DNA from: Glycomyces artemisiae
Lineage (GTDB): Bacteria > Actinomycetota > Actinomycetes > Mycobacteriales > Micromonosporaceae
Length of the DNA stretch: 64,000 nucleotides
NCBI RefSeq assembly: GCF_003002955.1
Contig: NZ_PVTJ01000002.1
Location: 62,001-126,000 of the forward strand
Direction: 5' to 3'
Part shown: positions 21,080-29,656 of the stretch, piece by piece
How positions within the stretch are numbered: the stretch's first letter is position 1
Layout of the letters: each line of letters starts with the position of its first letter
Translations under genes and position numbers: made by a program
Notes under the pieces: generated by a model
What the model was told of the DNA's origin: nothing
Databases searched by the model: none
What the model saw: the letters and a program-made list of their open reading frames with translations, nothing else

Positions 21080-22333
21080 ATGGAGCACACCGAAGAGGAC
21101 ACCGTTCCTCTGCACCGGCCGGATGCTCCCGCCTGGTCTCCGTTCGCACCGCCGGAAGTGAACGCGCAGTACGCGGCCGGCCCGGAGGCCGTCCACAATC
21201 CGCGCACCACCGACCACGTGCCGAGCGCGCCGCCGCCCCCCGCGATGCCGATGCCCGCGGAGCCGCAGTCGCCGACCCCGTCGCAGCCGCAGCAGGCCGC
21301 GCCGGACGGCTGGCCGTCGCCGCCGTCCCAGGGCGTGCCGCCGGTGTCGCCGCACGTCCCGGTGCCGGTGTTCCCCGACCACGCCGGTGCGCTGGAGCGC
21401 GTCGGCGTCACCGCCGACGACTTCGCGTCGCGGCGGGTCGTGCCGCCGCGCCCGCCGGTCGCCGAGACGGGCCTGCGCGGGGCGCTGCACCGGTTGAGCT
21501 TCGGCGCCGTCGCGCTGCCGCCCGGCCCGCGCGAGCGCGCCCGGCAGCGGGCGGTCGAGACGGTGCGCCGCAACTTCGGGGGCCTGCGCCAGATCACCGT
21601 CGTGAACCCGAAGGGCGGGGCGGGGAAGACCGTCGCGGTCCTCATGCTCGCGATGACGTTCGGGCGCCACCGCGGCGGGTACGTGCTCGCGTGGGACAAC
21701 AACGAGACGCAGGGGACGCTGGGCATGCGCGCCCAGCAGGACTTCCACGTCCGCACCGTCCGCGACCTGCTGCGGGACCTCGACCACTTCAAGGGGCCCA
21801 CGGGGCGGATCGGCGACCTGTCGCAGTACGTGCGCGCCCAGGGCGGCGCGATGTTCGACGTGCTCGCCTCCGACGAGTCGGCGACGGCCGGGGAGATGCT
21901 CACCGCGCAGTCGTTCGGGGACCTGCGGGAGGCGGTGTCGCGGTTCTACAAGCTCATCGTCGTCGACACCGGGAACAACGTGCGGGCCCAGAACTGGCAG
22001 GCGGCGATCGACGCGACCGACCAGCTGGTGGTGACGATGTCGGCGCGGAACGACTCGGCGGAGACCGCCGCGAGGATGCTCGACCACCTGGAGCAGACGG
22101 GCCGGCGGGACCTGGTGCGGGGCGCGGTGTCGGTGGTGTCGATGCCCGCCCACCGCAAGGACGTGGACCTGCCCGCGGTGCAGCGGCATTTCGCGGCCCG
22201 GACCCGGGCGGTGCTGCTGGCGCCGTACGAGAAGCTGCTCGACTCGGGCGAGCCGATCCGCTACGACTCGTTGAGCAAGGCGTCGTCCGCGGCCTGGCTG
22301 CGGATCGGCGCGGCGGTGGCCGAGGGCCTGTAG
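21080..22333 (+). CDS. ParA/MinD-like P-loop ATPase with Pro-rich N-terminus
   Basis: 417 residues; ATG with GGGAG about 7 nt upstream. Residues 1-135 are Pro/Gln-rich and probably disordered. The ATPase begins at about 170 with QITVVNPKGGAGKTVAVLMLA (deviant Walker A, KGGxGKT) and VLAWDNNETQGTLG (about 210), followed by KLIVVDTGNNVRAQNW (Walker B). This layout is like EspI/ESX-associated and actinobacterial MinD-like proteins, with DNN replacing DxD. Possible roles are positioning of a secretion system or DNA segregation; no ParB-like partner is adjacent. Its last 73 nt overlap the end of the convergent TetR gene. Confidence 0.8.
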   Translation: MEHTEEDTVPLHRPDAPAWSPFAPPEVNAQYAAGPEAVHNPRTTDHVPSAPPPPAMPMPAEPQSPTPSQPQQAAPDGWPSPPSQGVPPVSPHVPVPVFPDHAGALERVGVTADDFASRRVVPPRPPVAETGLRGALHRLSFGAVALPPGPRERARQRAVETVRRNFGGLRQITVVNPKGGAGKTVAVLMLAMTFGRHRGGYVLAWDNNETQGTLGMRAQQDFHVRTVRDLLRDLDHFKGPTGRIGDLSQYVRAQGGAMFDVLASDESATAGEMLTAQSFGDLREAVSRFYKLIVVDTGNNVRAQNWQAAIDATDQLVVTMSARNDSAETAARMLDHLEQTGRRDLVRGAVSVVSMPAHRKDVDLPAVQRHFAARTRAVLLAPYEKLLDSGEPIRYDSLSKASSAAWLRIGAAVAEGL

Positions 22334-22926
22334 GAGGCCAGGAGGTCGACGAGGCCCGCGGCGGCGTCGGCGAGGCGGGAGTCGTCCTCGTCGGCGTGGC
22401 CGGTGACGAGCGCGCCCTGGACGAACACGAGGGCGGTGCGCGCGAGCCGCCCGGGGTCGGCGGCGGGGTCGAGCTCGCCGCGCTCGACGGCGCGGGCGAG
22501 GATCGCGGCGAGGTCGCGTTCGAGGTCGGTCCAGGCGTCCTGGACGCGGCGCATCGTGGCCGGGTCGTCGGCGAGCTCGACGGCCGCGCGGACGACGAAC
22601 CCGCCCTCCTTCGAGTGCCTGACGACGACGTCGAGGATCTCGGCGACGGCCCGCAGCGCGTCCGCAGGGTCGTCGTCGGCGGCTTCGCGAGCTGTCGCGC
22701 GGCGGGCTATCGCGCGCAGCTCCGGCTCGGTGTCGTCCCTATATCGTTGCAGCGCTGTGATGTAGAGCTGGTGCTTGGACCCGAACGCGGCGTAGAGCCC
22801 GGCGCGGTTCATGCCGGTGGCGGCGACCAGGTCCGACATGGAGGTCGCGGAGAACCCGCGGTCCAGGAACACCCGTGTCGCAGCGCGAAGGACTCTGTCC
22901 AAATCGGGGTTCTTATTTCTGCTCAC
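22261..22926 (-). CDS. TetR family transcriptional regulator
   Basis: 221 residues. The N-terminal DNA-binding domain (about 7-55) has the TetR helix-turn-helix ATSMSDLVAATGMNRAGLYAAFGSKHQLY. The C-terminal ligand/dimer domain is helical and of the TetR_C type. The GTG at 22926 is chosen over one at 22935 because TACGGT ends 7 nt upstream of it, as at other leaderless genes here. It is divergent from the cobalamin riboswitch operon, with about 100 bp to that promoter, so cross-regulation is possible but unproved. Its 3' end overlaps the ParA-like gene on the other strand. Confidence 0.88.
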   Translation of the reverse strand: MSRNKNPDLDRVLRAATRVFLDRGFSATSMSDLVAATGMNRAGLYAAFGSKHQLYITALQRYRDDTEPELRAIARRATAREAADDDPADALRAVAEILDVVVRHSKEGGFVVRAAVELADDPATMRRVQDAWTDLERDLAAILARAVERGELDPAADPGRLARTALVFVQGALVTGHADEDDSRLADAAAGLVDLLASYRPSATAAPIRSQAADDALLNES

Positions 22927-23028
22927 GTTGAGCACCGTATCGACACCCGGTGCTACGGGTCAATAACCGCAAGGCGGGAGTTGACTCACGAGGCGCGAGT
23001 GAACGGTCGCACTGCGCAGGCGCCCGGC

Positions 23029-23057
23029 TTGACACCCCCAGGGGCAGCGGCGAGAAT
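23029..23057 (+). promoter_or_regulatory. Promoter of the cobalamin riboswitch operon
   Basis: TTGACA (23029-23034), a 17-nt spacer and GAGAAT (23052-23057). The expected transcript start, about 23064, sits just before the riboswitch. Confidence 0.75.
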
Positions 23058-23072
23058 GAGCGCAAACTGAAC

Positions 23073-23206
23073 AGGCGTCTGGCGGGGGAAGTCCGGTGAA
23101 AGGCCGGCGCTGACCCGCAACGGTAGTCGCGGTCGCGAAATGCGACAACCGGGCACCCTTCTGCTCCTGCCCGGTCCACCCGCGTGAGCCCGAATACCCG
23201 CCGCGC
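23073..23206 (+). ncRNA. Cobalamin (adenosylcobalamin-type) riboswitch
   Basis: The conserved core is clear: GGGGGAAGTCCGGTGAAA (23084-23101), then GGCCGGCGCTGACCCGCAAC (23102-23121) and GGTAG, and near the 3' end GTGAGCCCGAATACCCGCC. P1 pairs GGCGGG (23081-23086) with CCCGCC (23197-23202). Downstream hairpins (CGCCTGT/ACAGGCG at 23223-23244 and GCGGC/GCCGC at 23248-23260) lie between the aptamer and the first start codon and may be the expression platform. It should lower expression of the ECF operon when cobalamin is plentiful. Confidence 0.93.
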
Positions 23207-23298
23207 CCAACGGAAATGTCAACGCCTGTCGTGGTCTACAGGCGCTTGCGGCGCAGCCGCCTGCCCGAAGACCCACTCGCTCTAGGAAAGGTCAGGCA

Positions 23299-24570
23299 AT
23301 GCGCCACCTTGCCGGCCGCGTGCTCATCGCAGCGGCCCTGCCCGTCACCCTGCTCGCGGCGTCGCCCGCGCACGCCCAGTCGTCGCAGCCGTTCGCCGAG
23401 CCCGCCGCGGCCGCCGCGTCCTGGCTGGCCGCCCAGTCCGACGGGACCGCCTGGAACCAGGACCCGGCGACGACGCTCGACGCGGTCATCGGCCTCCAGG
23501 CCGCCCGCGTCGGCGGCGACCAGGTGCAGACCGCGCTCGAATGGCTCAACGACACCGCGGTCCTCGACCCGTACGTGAACACGACCGCCGCGGGCGGCGC
23601 CGGGTTCAACGCCGGGTCGGCCGGGAAGGTCATGTACACCGTCGCGACCGCCGGGGGCGACCCGACGGACTTCGGCGGCATCAAGCTCGCCGAGGAGACG
23701 GCCGCCGCGCAGGCCGCGAACGGCACCTACGGCGACGGCACCGCCCTGTCGACCGCGTGGGCGGTCCTCGGCCTCTCGCGCACCGACACGCCCGCGGGCG
23801 AGGCCGCGGCGACCGGGTTCGCGGCGGTCCAGTGCCCCGACGGCGGCTTCAGCTTCGGCGACGTCGACGGCGGCGACGACTGCGTCTCCGACCCGGACAC
23901 GACCGGCCTGGCCGTCTCGGCGCTCACGACCCTCGGCGACCCGGCCGCGGCGTCCCTGGAGCCGGCCGTGGCCTGGCTGGAGGCGGCGCAGGCCGAGGAC
24001 GGCGGGTTCGACGGCGGGTTCGGCGAGAACGCGAACTCGACGGCCATGGCCGCGCAGGCGCTCCTCGCGGCCGACCGGCCCGAGGCGGCCGAGCGGGCCG
24101 TCGCGTTCCTGCTGACGCTCCAGTTCGGCTGCGACGGCGCCGCCCCCGGCGCGTTCATGTACACGAACCCCGAGGACGCCGACTTCGGCGAGGCGACGCG
24201 CCTGCTGGCGACCGCGCAGGCGATCGTCCCGGTCTCGGGCCAGGACCTTACAACGCTCGACGCCTCCGGCTCGGCCGCCGACGTCCCCGCCGTGGACTGC
24301 GAGTCCGCGGACGCGGGCGACGGCGCCACCACGGCCGCCGACGACGAGGAGTCCGGTTCGGCCTCCTGGCTGCCCTGGGCGATCATCGCCGCGGTCGTCG
24401 TCATCGCCGCGCTCATCGTCGTCTTCGCGCTGCGCTCGCGCCGCGGCGGCGGCTCGGGCGGGGCGGGCGCCGCGGCGCCCGCCGGGCCGAACGCCGACGG
24501 CGCGGCTTCCGGCGGGTCCGCTTCGGACGAAGCGGCCGGCGAGGACACCGACGAGGGCAAGGACAAGTAG
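23299..24570 (+). CDS. Secreted, membrane-anchored alpha/alpha-barrel protein (prenyltransferase-repeat, transcobalamin-like N-domain)
   Basis: 423 residues. A signal peptide (1-26, cleavage after AHA) precedes helical repeats with the prenyltransferase/squalene-cyclase pattern: AAASWLAAQSDG, AAVQCPDGGFSFGDVDGG, AVAWLEAAQAEDGGFDGGF, AVAFLLTLQFGCDG. Four cysteines fall in two likely disulfide pairs. A Ser/Asp-rich linker leads to a membrane helix (about 354-376, WLPWAIIAAVVVIAALIVVFAL), RSRR and a Gly/Ala/acidic tail. No polyprenyl substrate motif is visible. Placed right after a B12 riboswitch and before an ECF transporter, it most resembles the cobalamin-binding alpha barrel of intrinsic factor and transcobalamin. 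B12 capture at the cell surface is inference. Confidence 0.85.
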   Translation: MRHLAGRVLIAAALPVTLLAASPAHAQSSQPFAEPAAAAASWLAAQSDGTAWNQDPATTLDAVIGLQAARVGGDQVQTALEWLNDTAVLDPYVNTTAAGGAGFNAGSAGKVMYTVATAGGDPTDFGGIKLAEETAAAQAANGTYGDGTALSTAWAVLGLSRTDTPAGEAAATGFAAVQCPDGGFSFGDVDGGDDCVSDPDTTGLAVSALTTLGDPAAASLEPAVAWLEAAQAEDGGFDGGFGENANSTAMAAQALLAADRPEAAERAVAFLLTLQFGCDGAAPGAFMYTNPEDADFGEATRLLATAQAIVPVSGQDLTTLDASGSAADVPAVDCESADAGDGATTAADDEESGSASWLPWAIIAAVVVIAALIVVFALRSRRGGGSGGAGAAAPAGPNADGAASGGSASDEAAGEDTDEGKDK

Positions 24571-24578
24571 TCCCTCCC

Positions 24579-25196
24579 GTGTCCCTTCGCGAACGACGCG
24601 CAGCCAGCGCCCGCCACTCAGGCGGGCGCTGGCTGCGCGTGCGCGCGGTGGCGCTCGCGGCGCTGTTCGCGGCCGCCGCGCCGGTGGCGCCCGCGGCCCC
24701 CGCTGCGGCGCAGGACGCCTGCGCAGGCGTGACCGTGGTCGTCGACTTCGGCGAGCTCGACGACCTGCGGACCGGGTGCGCCGCCGATCCGGCGGACGGG
24801 CTCGACGCGCTCGCGCAGGCCGGGTTCGCGGTGACGGAGGTCGCGGCGATCCGCGGCATGGTGTGCAGCATCGACGCGCTGCCCGCGACCGATTGCGGTG
24901 CTTCACCTCCCGCGGACGCGTACTGGTCGTACTGGCACGCGAACGCCGGGGACGAGGAGTGGACGTACTCGATGGTCGGCGGCGCCGACGCGACTCCTGA
25001 CGCGGGCGACGTCGAAGGCTGGGCGTTCGGGGACGGCTCCGCGCCGCCCGCGCTCGCGCCCGGCGACGCCGTCGCATCGGAGGCCGGGTCGGAGCCGGAG
25101 TCCGGCGGGTCGTCGTACACGTGGATCATCGCCGTGGCCGTGCTCGCCGTCATCGGCGTGCTCGCGGCGTGGCGGCTCCGGCAGCGGCGCGCCTGA
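24579..25196 (+). CDS. Secreted, membrane-anchored DUF4430-like protein (transcobalamin-like C-domain)
   Basis: 205 residues from a GTG 8 nt after the preceding stop. A basic n-region and a hydrophobic core (about 24-40) form a signal peptide ending near APAAAQ. The mature domain starts CAGVTVVVDFGELDD and contains PADAYWSYWHANAGDEEW and DVEGWAFGDGSAPPALAP. The WxYWH...W.YS...VEGW pattern matches DUF4430-like beta domains. Four cysteines suggest two disulfides. A C-terminal helix (about 180-198) and RLRQRR anchor it. DUF4430 is the C-terminal half of transcobalamin-type proteins. An alternative GTG at 24639 would exclude the 20-bp hairpin at 24596-24640 but has no ribosome site. Confidence 0.82.
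   Translation: MSLRERRAASARHSGGRWLRVRAVALAALFAAAAPVAPAAPAAAQDACAGVTVVVDFGELDDLRTGCAADPADGLDALAQAGFAVTEVAAIRGMVCSIDALPATDCGASPPADAYWSYWHANAGDEEWTYSMVGGADATPDAGDVEGWAFGDGSAPPALAPGDAVASEAGSEPESGGSSYTWIIAVAVLAVIGVLAAWRLRQRRA
24596..24640 (+). repeat. Perfect 20-bp inverted repeat at the start of the DUF4430-like gene
   Basis: The arms are 24596-24615 and 24621-24640 (ACGCGCAGCCAGCGCCCGCC and its exact complement), with loop ACTCA. It is the longest perfect stem I noticed in the window. It may be an attenuator, an mRNA-processing site or a stabilising 3' structure for the upstream gene. Confidence 0.8.
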
Positions 25197-25198
25197 CC

Positions 25199-26515
25199 GT
25201 GCCGACCGGACCCGGCCCGATGCGCCGCCGCACCGCCCACCCCGTCGCCTGGTGGGCGTGGGCGCTGCTGCTCGCGACCGCCGCGGGGCGCACCGCGAAC
25301 CCGTGGCTGCTGCTCCTCATCGCCGCGGTCGCCGGGCTCGTGGTGGCGTTCTGCCGGGGCGACGAGCCCTGGTCGGGCGCGTACCGGGTGTTCCTCTACA
25401 TCGGGTTGAGCGCGGTCGCGGTCCGCATGGCGTTCTATGTGGTCTTCGGCGGCTCCGACGGGCCGACGGTCCTGTTCACGCTGCCGTCGGCGACGCTCCC
25501 GGAGTGGGCGGCCGGGTTCCGGCTCGGCGGCGACGTCACCGCCGAGGGCGCGCTCGCCGCCCTGTACGACGGGATGCGGCTCGCGGTGCTGCTCGTGTGC
25601 GTGGGCGCGGCGAACGCGCTCGCGAGTCCGCGGCGGCTGCTGCGGTCGGTTCCGGCCGCGCTGTACGAGGTCAGCGTCGCGGTCGTCGTGGCGCTGTCGG
25701 TGGCGCCGCAGCTGGTCGCGTCGGTCGGGCGGGTCCGGCGGGCGAGGGCCTTGCGCGGCAACACGAGCCGGAGTCCGGCGAACCTCATGCGGACGGTCGT
25801 CGCGCCGGTGCTGCACGAGGCGCTCGACCGGTCGCTGCACCTGGCCGCGGCCATGGCGTCCCGCGGGTACGGGCGCGCCGCGGGCGTGCCCGCCCCGGCC
25901 CGCCGCGCCACCGGCGCCGCGCTCCTCACCGGGCTCCTCGGCCTGTGCGCGGGCGCGTACGCGCTCCTCGGCACCGCTACTCCAGCGCCCCTCGCGTGGG
26001 CGGTCCTCGCGGTCGGCGCGGCCGCCGCGGTCTTCGGGATCGCGTTCGCGTCCCGGCGCGTGCCGCACACCAGGTACCGCCCGGACCGCTTCGGCCTCAA
26101 GGACTGGGCGGTCGCCGCCTCCGGCGCGGCCGCCGTCGCCGGTTCGGTGGCGAGCCTCGCCCTCGAACCCGCGGCCCTGTGGCCCGCGACCGCGCCGCTC
26201 CATGTACCCCCGCTCCCCCTGTACGCCGCGGCCGGAGTCCTCCTCGCCGCCGCGCCCGCATTCCTCGTGCCGTCGACGCCCGAGAGCGCCGCCCGGCAAG
26301 CGCACGAGCGCACCCCGACCCCGGCCCGCGCGGAGGCCGCTGCCGCGGCTCCGGCAAGCAACGGCGATGGAACACCGGGCGGCGACCGGCAGCCCGCTTC
26401 GAGCGTCGGCACCGGCGCACCACAAGGCGGGCGGCGTCCCGCCGCGGACGCCGAATCCGCGGCGCCGCGAGGCGGCTCGGGCACCGACACCTCGGCAACG
26501 GAAGGCACCCGATGA
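25199..26515 (+). CDS. Energy-coupling factor transporter transmembrane protein (EcfT) with long disordered tail
   Basis: 438 residues from a GTG 2 nt after the upstream stop; an ATG at 25220 is a close alternative. EcfT couples the ATPases to the substrate-binding S protein. Several membrane helices lie at about 10-60, 65-85 and 215-330. The coupling-helix signature is AMASRGYGRAAG (about 216-227), the Ala-X-Arg-Gly motif of EcfT. An earlier cytoplasmic helix pair includes RVRRARALRGNTSRSP. The last 85 residues are Ala/Pro/Gly-rich and unusual for the family. The stop overlaps the ATPase start (ATGA). Confidence 0.88.
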   Translation: MPTGPGPMRRRTAHPVAWWAWALLLATAAGRTANPWLLLLIAAVAGLVVAFCRGDEPWSGAYRVFLYIGLSAVAVRMAFYVVFGGSDGPTVLFTLPSATLPEWAAGFRLGGDVTAEGALAALYDGMRLAVLLVCVGAANALASPRRLLRSVPAALYEVSVAVVVALSVAPQLVASVGRVRRARALRGNTSRSPANLMRTVVAPVLHEALDRSLHLAAAMASRGYGRAAGVPAPARRATGAALLTGLLGLCAGAYALLGTATPAPLAWAVLAVGAAAAVFGIAFASRRVPHTRYRPDRFGLKDWAVAASGAAAVAGSVASLALEPAALWPATAPLHVPPLPLYAAAGVLLAAAPAFLVPSTPESAARQAHERTPTPARAEAAAAAPASNGDGTPGGDRQPASSVGTGAPQGGRRPAADAESAAPRGGSGTDTSATEGTR

Positions 26516-28176
26516 CCGTCGACGCCATCGTGTTCGAGCACGTCACCTTCGCCTACGAGGCAGCCCCGACCGGCGCGGGCCGGACCGTCCCGGCGGCGCC
26601 CGTCCTCGACGACGTGTCGTTCGCGCTCCCCGAGGGCGAGTTCTGCCTGCTCGTCGGCCCGACGGGCGCCGGGAAGTCCACGCTCCTCAAGGCCGTCAAC
26701 GGGCTCGTGCCCCGCTTCACCGGCGGCGACATGCACGGCCGCATCGCCGTCGCCGGGCGCGAGGTGCGCACCGCGACCCCGGCCGACCTCGCCGACGTCG
26801 TCGGCTACGTCGGCCAGGACCCGCTCGCGGGGTTCGTCACCGACGAGGTCGAGCTCGAACTCGCCTACACCGCCGAGCAGCTCGGGATCGCGCCCGCGGC
26901 GATGCGCAAGCGGGTCACCGAGATCGTCGATCTGCTGGGCCTCGCCGACGTGCGGGACCGCGCGCTCGCGCAGCTGTCGTCGGGTCAGCGCCAGCGGGTC
27001 GCGATCGGCGCGGCCCTGGTCGCGGGCCCGGCCGCGCTCGTGCTCGACGAGCCGACGTCGGCGCTCGATCCGGCCGCGGCCGACGAGGTGCTGTCAGTGC
27101 TGCACCGGCTCGTCCACGACCTCGGCGTCACGGTGCTGCTGGCGGAGCACCGGCTCGAACGGGTCGTCCAATATGCAGATTCCGCCCTCCTTCTCGACGG
27201 CGGCAAGGTCGCCGCCGGTCCGCTCGGCGAGGTGCTCGCCGAGTCCCCTGTCGCTCCCCCGGTGGTCGGCCTGGGGCGGCTGGCCGGATGGCCCGGCCCG
27301 CCGGTGACGATCCGCGAGGCCCGGCGCCACGCCGCCGGACTCCGCGCGACCATCACTGAACGTGCCCGAACCGTAGCGCGACACACCGACACTTCCGTCC
27401 CGTCCGCATCGCTGGAACCGCCGCTGCTGGAGGCCCGGGGCGTCACGGTCGACTACCCGGGGGTGCGCGCGGTCGCCGGGATCGACCTCGTCGCGCGCCG
27501 CGGCGAGCGCATCGCCCTCATGGGCCGCAACGGGTCCGGGAAGTCCAGCCTCATGTGGGCGCTCCAGGGCACCGGGAAGCGCTCCGGCGGGACCGTCGCC
27601 ATCGCGGGCGCCGACCCCGCGTCGCGCAGGCCCGGGGAGCGGCGCCGCCTCGCCGGGCTCGTGCCCGCCGAGGCCGCCGACCTGCTGTACGCCGAGACCG
27701 TCGCCGCCGAATGCGCCGGAGCCGACGCCGACGGCGGCGCCCCCAAGGGCGCCTGCGCGAAGATCCTCGACGACCTCGTCGACGGCGTCGACCCCGAGAC
27801 CCACCCCCGCGACCTGTCCGAAGGGCAGCGCCTCGCGCTCGCGCTCGCCGTGACCCTCACGGCCGCACCGCCCCTGCTGCTCCTCGACGAGCCGACCCGC
27901 GGCCTCGACTACCCGGGGAAGGCCGCGCTCGCCGCGCGCCTGAAAGCCCTCGCGCAGGCCGGGCACTGCGTGGTCGTGTCCACGCACGACGTCGAGTTCT
28001 GCGCCGAGTTCGCCTCCCGCGTGGTGGTCCTGTCGGACGGCGAGGTCGTCGCCGACGGCCCGGCCCGGCAGATCACCGCCGCGTCGCCGATGTTCGCGCC
28101 GCAGGTGGAGAAGATCCTGCCCGGCTGGCAGACCGTCGCCGAGGTCGCCGCGGCCCTGGGGCGCGACGGTGAGTGA
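26512..28176 (+). CDS. Fused double ATPase of an ECF transporter (EcfA-EcfA')
   Basis: 554 residues with two ABC ATPase domains. Domain 1 (about 1-250): Walker A GPTGAGKSTLLKAVNGL, Q-loop GQDPLAG, signature LSSGQRQRVAIGAAL, Walker B ALVLDEPTSALDP, switch His in LLAEHRLERV. Domain 2 (about 305-545): Walker A GRNGSGKSSLMWAL, signature LSEGQRLALALAV, Walker B LLLLDEPTRGLDY, switch His in STHDVEF. A single-chain A-A' is common in actinobacterial ECF systems. It overlaps EcfT by 4 nt and the S gene by 8 nt, so all three are translationally coupled. Confidence 0.94.
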   Translation: MTVDAIVFEHVTFAYEAAPTGAGRTVPAAPVLDDVSFALPEGEFCLLVGPTGAGKSTLLKAVNGLVPRFTGGDMHGRIAVAGREVRTATPADLADVVGYVGQDPLAGFVTDEVELELAYTAEQLGIAPAAMRKRVTEIVDLLGLADVRDRALAQLSSGQRQRVAIGAALVAGPAALVLDEPTSALDPAAADEVLSVLHRLVHDLGVTVLLAEHRLERVVQYADSALLLDGGKVAAGPLGEVLAESPVAPPVVGLGRLAGWPGPPVTIREARRHAAGLRATITERARTVARHTDTSVPSASLEPPLLEARGVTVDYPGVRAVAGIDLVARRGERIALMGRNGSGKSSLMWALQGTGKRSGGTVAIAGADPASRRPGERRRLAGLVPAEAADLLYAETVAAECAGADADGGAPKGACAKILDDLVDGVDPETHPRDLSEGQRLALALAVTLTAAPPLLLLDEPTRGLDYPGKAALAARLKALAQAGHCVVVSTHDVEFCAEFASRVVVLSDGEVVADGPARQITAASPMFAPQVEKILPGWQTVAEVAAALGRDGE

Positions 28177-28975
28177 GGTCCGGCCCGCGGCGCGCCCGGC
28201 CGCGCGGCCCGCCGTGCATCGGCGAGCGGCGGTGGCTTTGGCGCTCGCGGCGGGGTTCGGGCTGGTGGCGATGTCGTGGCCGCTGCTGGCGGCGCCGGGC
28301 GGGGCGCTGACGGAGACCACGTCGGGCCCTTGGCTGTTCGCACTGCTGCTGCCGCTCGTGACGGCGACGGTGGTGGTGCAGCTGGCCGGCGGCGGCCTGG
28401 ACGCGCGGGCCGTGGCGCTGCTGGGCGTGCTCTCGGCGGTGGTGGCGGCGGTGCGGCCGTTCGGGGCCGGGGCGGCCGGGGTGGAGACGGTGTTCTTCCT
28501 GATCGTGTTGGCGGGCAGGGTGTTCGGGGCCGGGTTCGGGTTCCTGCTGGGGTGCACGGGCCTGTTCGCGTCGGCGCTGCTCACGGGCGGGGTGGGGCCG
28601 TGGATGCCGTACCAGATGTTCGCGGCGGCGTTCGTGGGCCTGGGCGCGGGCCTGCTGCCGCGCACGCCGGACACGCGGCCGGGCCGGGCCGGGGAGCTGG
28701 CGCTGCTCGTCGTCTACGGGGTGGCGGCGTCGCTGGCGTACGGGCTGCTGATGAACCTGTCGTTCTGGCCGTTCGCGATCACGCAGGGGGAGCTGGCGTA
28801 CGTGCCGGGCGGCGGGCTCGGCGAGAACCTGCCGCGGCTGCTGGCGTACTCCCTGGCGACGTCGCTGGGCTGGGACGTGGGACGGGCGGCGACGACCGCG
28901 GTGCTGCTCGTGCTCACGGGCCCCCTGCTGCTGCGGGTGCTGCGGCGGGCGGCCCGGCGCGCGAACTGGTCCTAG
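28169..28975 (+). CDS. ECF transporter S component, predicted cobalamin-specific
   Basis: 268 residues, GTG start. About six to seven hydrophobic segments lie from 20 to 255, with a basic N-terminus (RPAARPAARPAVHRRAA). The loop GVGPWMPYQMFAAAFVGLGAGLLP (about 150-173) matches S proteins in which a W-x-P-[YF]-Q-M motif precedes a membrane helix. Specificity cannot be read from sequence alone, but the operon begins with a cobalamin riboswitch and contains the transcobalamin-like pair. Vitamin B12 or a precursor is therefore the likely cargo. Last gene of the operon; no clear terminator in the 30 bp before the convergent gene. Confidence 0.85.
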   Translation: MSEVRPAARPAARPAVHRRAAVALALAAGFGLVAMSWPLLAAPGGALTETTSGPWLFALLLPLVTATVVVQLAGGGLDARAVALLGVLSAVVAAVRPFGAGAAGVETVFFLIVLAGRVFGAGFGFLLGCTGLFASALLTGGVGPWMPYQMFAAAFVGLGAGLLPRTPDTRPGRAGELALLVVYGVAASLAYGLLMNLSFWPFAITQGELAYVPGGGLGENLPRLLAYSLATSLGWDVGRAATTAVLLVLTGPLLLRVLRRAARRANWS

Positions 28976-29005
28976 CGGCGACGAGCCCGGCGGGACCCCA
29001 GGCGT

Positions 29006-29656
29006 TCAGGCGTTGCGGGCGAGGCGGAAGCCGAGGTCGTCGATGTGCAGCACCGGCATGGTGCGGCGGCGCACCCCGGCCCGGCACGACCAGTGCTCGT
29101 CGAACCAGCCGCCGCCCTTGATGACCCGGTAGTCGCGGTAGACCTCCCGGTCGTACACGTCGAAGCACCACTCCCAGGCGTTGCCGAGCATGTCGTACAG
29201 GCCCCACGGGTTCGGCTCGCGCCCGGCGACCTCGTGGAGGCGCTCGCCGGAGTTCCCGCGGTGCCAGGCGATCGCGTCGAGGCCGCCGTAGCGCGGCCCG
29301 GCGGTCCCGGCCCGGCAGGCGTGCTCCCATTCGGCCTCGGCGGGCAGCCGGTAGCCGTCCGCGGCGCGGTCCCACACGACGGCATCGCTCTCGCCGGTCT
29401 CGGCTCCCGCGTAGACCGGTTGCAGCCCTTCGCGTTCCGACAGCGCGTTGCACCAGCGGACGGCGTCGAGCCAGGACACCTCGACGGCCGGAAGGTCCCC
29501 GGCGCCCGCACCGCCGAGCACCTCGGCGTACAGCCCGCGCGTGACCGGGACGGCGGCCAGGCGGAACGGCGCGACCTCGGCGGTCCAGGAGCGCTCGGTC
29601 CGCCGGTCGTGGAGCGTCGCGGTCCCCGCGGGGATCGGCAGCATCTGCGGTGTCAC
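29006..29656 (-). CDS. SUMF1/formylglycine-generating-enzyme-like domain protein, probably not a true FGE
   Basis: 216 residues, one FGE-sulfatase (SUMF1) domain. Landmarks are VSWLDAVRWCNALSEREGL, YRLPAEAEWEHACRAG, WGLYDMLGNAWEWCFD, the KGGGWFDEHW region and SCRAGVRR. True FGEs end in GFRCA with a catalytic Cys; here it is GFRLARNA, so copper-dependent formylglycine formation is unlikely. It is also shorter than FGE. SUMF1 folds of this type occur in many unrelated roles. The GTG start has TAGTAT ending 6 nt upstream, a leaderless arrangement. No sulfatase or EgtD gene is nearby. Confidence 0.8.
   Translation of the reverse strand: MTPQMLPIPAGTATLHDRRTERSWTAEVAPFRLAAVPVTRGLYAEVLGGAGAGDLPAVEVSWLDAVRWCNALSEREGLQPVYAGAETGESDAVVWDRAADGYRLPAEAEWEHACRAGTAGPRYGGLDAIAWHRGNSGERLHEVAGREPNPWGLYDMLGNAWEWCFDVYDREVYRDYRVIKGGGWFDEHWSCRAGVRRRTMPVLHIDDLGFRLARNA

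Follow-up and report, generated by a model that had tools for sequence, protein, structure and literature searches.

The closest described relatives of the system reported here come from Burroughs 2007 (PMC1796856), which, in the portion of the text available to us, covers fusions of a toroid with an SLBB domain, stand-alone SLBB proteins and operons with CbiO/CbiQ genes, and proposes vitamin B12 (cobalamin) scavenging. Excerpts of two further papers describe, for acI freshwater Actinobacteria without B12 synthesis, an energy-coupling factor (ECF) module preceded by cobalamin riboswitches (PMC5301498) and surface B12-binding lipoproteins in Bacteroides (PMC6143338). Here we describe an operon from a 64,000-nucleotide stretch of the actinobacterium Glycomyces artemisiae (contig NZ_PVTJ01000002.1, positions 62,001 to 126,000; hereafter the window), in which a cobalamin riboswitch precedes genes for an exported toroid protein (P1), an exported beta protein (P2) and an ECF transporter. 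We consider it likely, with a probability of roughly 70%, that this is a B12 (corrinoid) import operon in which P1 and P2 together serve as a two-chain counterpart of transcobalamin, capturing the corrinoid and passing it to the S component. Extracellular B12 capture in Gram-positive actinobacteria has, to our knowledge, hardly been studied. Loci are labelled L and genomes G, with G000 being the window's own genome.

The operon and its link to vitamin B12

The promoter, cobalamin riboswitch, P1, P2, EcfT, fused EcfA-A' and S component of the initial annotation were all found in place (Table 1). Gaps of 8 nt and 23 nt separate P1 from P2 and P2 from EcfT, whose start codon was our choice, while EcfT overlaps EcfA-A' by 4 nt and EcfA-A' overlaps S by 8 nt. 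The promoter-like TTGACA-17-GAGAAT was the sole such site in positions 22900-29100 (shuffles: mean 0.0, sd 0.2). The leader folded with an uninformative z of -1.3. No terminator was found, which makes riboswitch control of translation more likely. EcfT, two ATPases and an S component, as expected of an ECF transporter, were present, the S component, taken as a single sequence, scoring below its Pfam cut-off; the S profile retrieved no relative from the PDB.

Table 1. Positions of the operon features, flanking genes and a second riboswitch locus of the same genome (window coordinates unless stated)
Feature	Position	Strand	Remarks
TetR-type regulator, neighbouring	22261-22935	-	by eye only
Sigma70-like promoter, TTGACA-17-GAGAAT	23029..23057	+	10/12 matches to consensus; consensus match only
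Cobalamin riboswitch aptamer (RF00174)	23063..23219	+	32.3 bits against gathering score 31.5; full model
P1, exported protein with an alpha/alpha toroid and a membrane helix at the C-terminus	23299..24570	+	423 aa; signal peptide by eye
P2, exported DUF4430/SLBB-like protein with C-terminal membrane helix	24579..25196	+	205 aa; GTG start; signal peptide by eye
EcfT transmembrane component	25220..26515	+	PF02361 CbiQ 34.1 bits, cut-off 25
EcfA-A' fused ATPases	26512..28176	+	two stretches matching ABC_tran; the best matches are ECF ATPase models, below equivalog cut-offs
ECF S component	28169..28975	+	GTG start; PF12822 ECF_trnsprt 21.9 bits, below cut-off 30.7
Open reading frame (ORF) resembling formylglycine-generating-type proteins, neighbouring	29006-29656	-	by eye only
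Riboswitch and 743-aa ORF read as metE (B12-independent methionine synthase)	L069 4846-7077; G000:C2 ~226.8-229.3 kb	-	riboswitch 85 bits

In the ten named Glycomyces loci, whose P1 proteins are 65-79% identical to that of the window, an RF00174 match was found upstream of P1 in every case (25.4-36.6 bits, three of them over the gathering score). Across 66 P1/P2 clusters from loci of 53 genomes, 50 had an RF00174 match on the same strand, 49-486 nt upstream, and 34 of these matches reached the gathering score; this and all other counts and Fisher tests given here ignore the relatedness of the genomes. The initial annotation had named homologues occurring mostly without any B12 gene or riboswitch as a refutation of its proposal, and this is not what the survey showed. 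Riboswitch places were taken from a scan at E 1e-3 per genome. Clusters at contig ends were scored as misses (L050 and L055 were flagged, and L047 and L098 are also near a contig start), as were L067 and L108, where the riboswitch lies inside the cluster ahead of a later gene. Genome G038, with a single weak P2 match and no ORF match in its locus L070, was left out of the riboswitch survey and kept in the cbiC and co-occurrence counts. In L056-L059 and L061, solo P1 genes have a cobalamin riboswitch of their own. A riboswitch also precedes P1 where it is on a different contig from P2, in G055 and in G114 and G121, whose P2 is near a contig end.

The window's own genome gave no cbiC match and has three B12-binding domains. 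Its second cobalamin riboswitch lies 41 nt ahead of the ORF read as metE. The same gene set is annotated on a Streptomyces plasmid, with metE adjoining. Within the order, cbiC was unmatched in 17 of the 36 P2-positive genomes versus 21 of the 114 P2-negative ones (Fisher 1e-3). The B12 reading of the operon is well supported by the riboswitch upstream of most clusters, by the co-occurrence of P1 and P2 described below and by a host with B12-binding domains and without a cbiC match. Lone beta proteins, with no P1 or ECF matches in the fetched stretch, were seen in L109 (G266), L064 and L106; the one in L109 lies behind a cobalamin riboswitch in a genome of 1.2 Mb.

Co-occurrence and conservation

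We searched 150 genomes of the order, using a one-sequence query for P2 (E 1e-3) and profiles for P1 and S (E 1e-20), which gave 36, 37 and 35 positive genomes, respectively. P1 and P2 went together: 33 genomes had both, seven had one (four P1 only, three P2 only) and 110 had neither (Fisher 3e-25). S and P2 were both present in 30 genomes and both absent from 109, with five having S only and six P2 only, and all three proteins were found in 28. Some of the exceptions (G008, G020 and G114) are on short contigs.

Besides the window's own genome, the search of the order gave 35 P2-positive genomes; loci were fetched from each of these and, as 20 regions, from 18 genomes of the class. The latter were taken from the class genomes with a profile match, 108 out of 197, many of the remaining matches being weak and partial. 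All five families were represented within a single region in 25 of the 35 order genomes and 14 of the 20 class regions. Most loci have the gene order P1-P2-EcfT-EcfAA'-S; L107 and L103, where P1 comes after S, are among the exceptions. In one annotated relative, the product names were prenyltransferase/squalene oxidase repeat protein and hypothetical protein. Mean column identity was highest in S (62%), followed by P2 (34%) and P1 (32%), measured on differing sets of 25, 35 and 28 sequences.

The toroid and beta proteins

Window P1 matched Prenyltrans (18.3 bits) and SQHop weakly, in neither case reaching the Pfam cut-off. The best of five structural models had a predicted local distance difference test (pLDDT) score of 67.2 and a predicted template modelling (pTM) score of 0.73. 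Its structural matches were toroids, including intrinsic factor and transcobalamin, which supports the barrel-type fold that the initial annotation had read from the repeats. In this one good model of the five, P1 is predicted to be an alpha/alpha toroid, similar to intrinsic factor and a little more so to terpene cyclases.

The description of P2 as DUF4430-like holds for its family, in which five of 35 members match PF14478 (DUF4430; best E 3.7e-6), but not for window P2 taken alone. With hhalign, the family profile aligned to DUF4430 (90.8%) along 71 columns that begin at the helix, and ten DUF4430 proteins from outside the class aligned to P2 in unswapped order. An AlphaFold model of P2 from 11 sequences gave no usable fold (pLDDT 47.6). 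For transcobalamin-like toroid and SLBB/DUF4430 proteins, the accessible part of PMC1949818 names a conserved aromatic residue in the insert that precedes strand 3. The GFVCRI place of P2, where 23 of the 35 members carry an aromatic and window P2 a Met, may correspond to this position. Window P2 also matched the NCBIfam family SCO2322 (NF040672) at 38.3 bits, short of the cut-off of 85, with its second half on the start of the model. From these alignments, P2 appears to be an unpermuted relative of the SCO2322 family.

Fusions and membrane anchors

In L053, L060, L066 and L104, a beta domain and the one or two toroids after it share a single open frame. A further beta-toroid fusion, in L067, was detected with an iterated profile only, and two Streptomyces plasmids (L114 and L116) carry beta-toroid single frames, one of them annotated as one gene. 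A second, separate beta gene follows in all seven fusion loci. L063, where a partial toroid precedes a beta domain in one frame, was excluded from this count. The chain in L114 (7698-10433) is annotated as a single beta-toroid-toroid protein, and LASTG before its last hydrophobic stretch presumably resembles a sortase signal.

Both P1 and P2 of the window end in a C-terminal hydrophobic stretch. Among 56 adjacent P1-P2 pairs, 38 had such a helix on both proteins and seven on neither, with seven having it on P1 only and four on P2 only (Fisher 0.003, relatedness ignored). The hydropathy threshold of 1.45 with a window of 17 was chosen after the result with 1.6 and a window of 19 had been seen. 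L034, on the same contig as L006, and L045, which overlaps L046, were left out of these counts and of the tree below. Five of the seven P1-only pairs belong to L056-L059 and L061; in these loci another P2 comes next, and this one does carry a hydrophobic tail (1.65-2.03). In the anchorless pairs of L038, L039, L040, L042, L043 and L044, the chains stop directly after the domains, and these six pairs are apparently secreted. L038 and L042-L044 also have a second P1-P2 pair in the same region.

Circular permutation

In 12 loci (L091-L102), the beta protein matched the P2 profile in swapped order, second half ahead of first, the other half being weak in L093 and L097. The toroid was also swapped in all nine of these loci having P1. 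Rotation of the sequences in silico gave a higher P2 score in ten out of ten proteins (62-86 bits, up from 30-50; no shuffled control exceeded 5.1) and a higher P1 score in eight out of eight (129-180 bits, up from 93-124), here with no shuffled control. The test took in ten of the 12 P2 and eight of the nine P1 proteins. Unpermuted controls, five for each protein and themselves members of the profile, scored best unrotated or within 6.1 bits of their best. SCO2322 looks like a permuted form of P2, and the swapped order is probably the derived one, since the DUF4430 proteins from outside the class align unswapped.

None of the loci examined paired a permuted with an unpermuted partner. Genome G233 has one permuted locus (L094) and one unpermuted locus (L103). 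A single inherited event could explain the shared permutation of P1 and P2; in a midpoint-rooted tree of EcfT, EcfA and S from 54 loci, the 11 permuted loci fell in two places. Toroids repeated in a single frame and beta genes in tandem, as in L056-L059 and L061, may represent the intermediate stages of a permutation by duplication and trimming.

Proposed mechanism and alternatives

When cobalamin is scarce, the riboswitch would permit expression of the operon. P1 and P2 would be exported and anchored next to each other in the membrane by their C-terminal helices, and the P1 toroid and the DUF4430-type beta-grasp domain of P2 would clamp a corrinoid between them. The captured corrinoid would then be handed to the dedicated S component, with EcfT and EcfA-A' powering its entry into the cell. 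The riboswitch and the genome content point to a corrinoid as the substrate, while the fusions, matched anchors, co-occurrence and shared permutation are indirect evidence for joint action of P1 and P2. P2 is probably the part docking on the transporter and P1 the capture half, which may be lost or doubled; this assignment is favoured by the P2 and ECF loci without P1 and by the stronger conservation of S than of P2 and P1. The view of P1 and P2 as two transcobalamin halves is supported indirectly, by the P1 model, the DUF4430 match of the P2 family and the beta-toroid single chains.

Several observations, besides the relatedness ignored in the counts, weigh against this reading. A riboswitch was not detected at 16 of the 66 clusters, and 16 of the 50 matches were below the gathering score. 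A cbiC gene was present in 19 of the 36 P2-positive genomes and Pfam names EcfT as CbiQ, for cobalt transport, both of which would suit import of cobalt or of a lower corrinoid, e.g. cobinamide, instead of cobalamin. Cobinamide is a possible substrate, as ECF-CbrT takes both it and cobalamin (PMC5997447, from the available sections). However, cobalt alone would be no help to a host without a cbiC match, and a metal ion should need no large extracellular toroid. We regard import of cobalt or a lower corrinoid in place of cobalamin as quite unlikely.

The structural evidence for P1 is also mixed. The remaining four models had pLDDT values of 33.7-47.5, and the best one resembles terpene cyclases somewhat more than intrinsic factor, and glycoside hydrolases about equally. 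A search of the PDB with the P1 profile gave cyclases, complement and farnesyltransferase, with transcobalamin and intrinsic factor absent among the 58 matches listed. The best sequence and fold matches were squalene-hopene and drimenyl diphosphate cyclases, as would be seen if P1 were a terpene-cyclase-like enzyme that is secreted, with P2 an unrelated protein of the surface and their co-regulation a coincidence. DxDD is the catalytic motif of class II terpene and squalene cyclases. It is absent at the aligned place in all 28 P1 members (two have it elsewhere), and P1 is exported and behind a B12 riboswitch in most clusters, which makes a cyclase very improbable. Window P2 alone had no Pfam match, including DUF4430, and reached E 0.075 against a DUF4430 profile of our own; its sequence and profile retrieved nothing relevant from the PDB, neither transcobalamin nor intrinsic factor.

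The need for P1 is questioned by L099 and L101, where a riboswitch is followed by permuted P2, EcfT, EcfAA' and S, with no P1. P1 was unmatched in all 12 genomes of the small-genome genus of L101 (g79), in 11 of which P2 is known by a weak profile match only. It was missing from 16 of the 18 P2-positive genomes of a follow-up set, of which 16 had been chosen for lacking P1 at the locus or for a small genome and two as positive controls. G025 and G118 carry S and P2 without P1, and the fusion loci all keep a separate beta gene. P2 alone could therefore bind or relay the vitamin, the toroid having another role at the surface, for instance the binding of a wall polymer, of a protein that carries corrinoid or of some other ligand. 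Yet P1 is present in 33 of the 36 P2-positive genomes of the order, is fused to the P2 domain in several loci and permuted alike, and its solo genes likewise have cobalamin riboswitches. Such a P2-only function is, in our judgement, rather unlikely.

Within the two-chain transcobalamin reading, we tentatively suggest, at somewhat less than even odds, a modular actinobacterial system with an obligate beta protein on the ECF importer and an exchangeable toroid. It would exist in an anchored version and in a fully secreted one, the latter a pair that scavenges B12, with both chains circularly permuted in one lineage while their partnership was kept, and with tandem-duplicated intermediates surviving in other lineages.

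Comparison with known systems

The principle of such a system is prior art, having been set out in Burroughs 2007 (PMC1796856), so far as the text at hand shows. The initial annotation's interpretation was partly supported, namely in the B12 operon, the toroid fold of P1, the DUF4430 kinship of the P2 family and the natural beta-toroid fusions. Its general idea was not new. The proteins of that paper and those of the window set share exported toroid and SLBB-type domains, cell-surface anchors and ECF-type genes. They differ in that the former have toroid and SLBB domains fused, in either order, while the window has two genes with their own anchors and one group has both permuted. In the available text of PMC1796856, we found no toroid as a separate partner gene, and the words riboswitch and Streptomyces are absent. 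Our searches of the open-licence literature yielded no two-gene/two-anchor form, soluble pair, riboswitch survey or double permutation (Streptomyces-type loci), and on that basis the two-gene split, the soluble versus anchored pairs and the circular permutation of both proteins appear to be new here. P1 and P2 of the window are not in one chain, being fused in some relatives only.

The B12 lipoproteins of Bacteroides belong to an outer-membrane system of Gram-negatives. They resemble the window proteins in capturing B12 at the surface (PMC6143338, in the part available). ECF-CbrT is likewise an ECF-type B12 importer with an S component, but the available sections of PMC5997447 describe no extracellular capture proteins. 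The acI module (PMC5301498, as excerpted) shares the riboswitch and ECF module, and G222-type loci look similar; the word transcobalamin is absent from that paper. Proteins of the SCO2322 family (NF040672) hold the place of P2 before the ECF genes in L091-L102, a membership that rests on the swapped match of window P2, and differ from window P2 in the swapped order of their halves.

If our reading is true, the operon would provide a bacterial model of intrinsic factor with interchangeable halves, assign a function to the SCO2322 family and stand as a natural example of partner proteins that were permuted jointly. Animal transcobalamin and intrinsic factor combine an alpha/alpha toroid with a DUF4430-type domain, as P1 and P2 of the window would. 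The animal proteins, however, are one soluble chain, whereas the predicted proteins of the window are two membrane-anchored chains.
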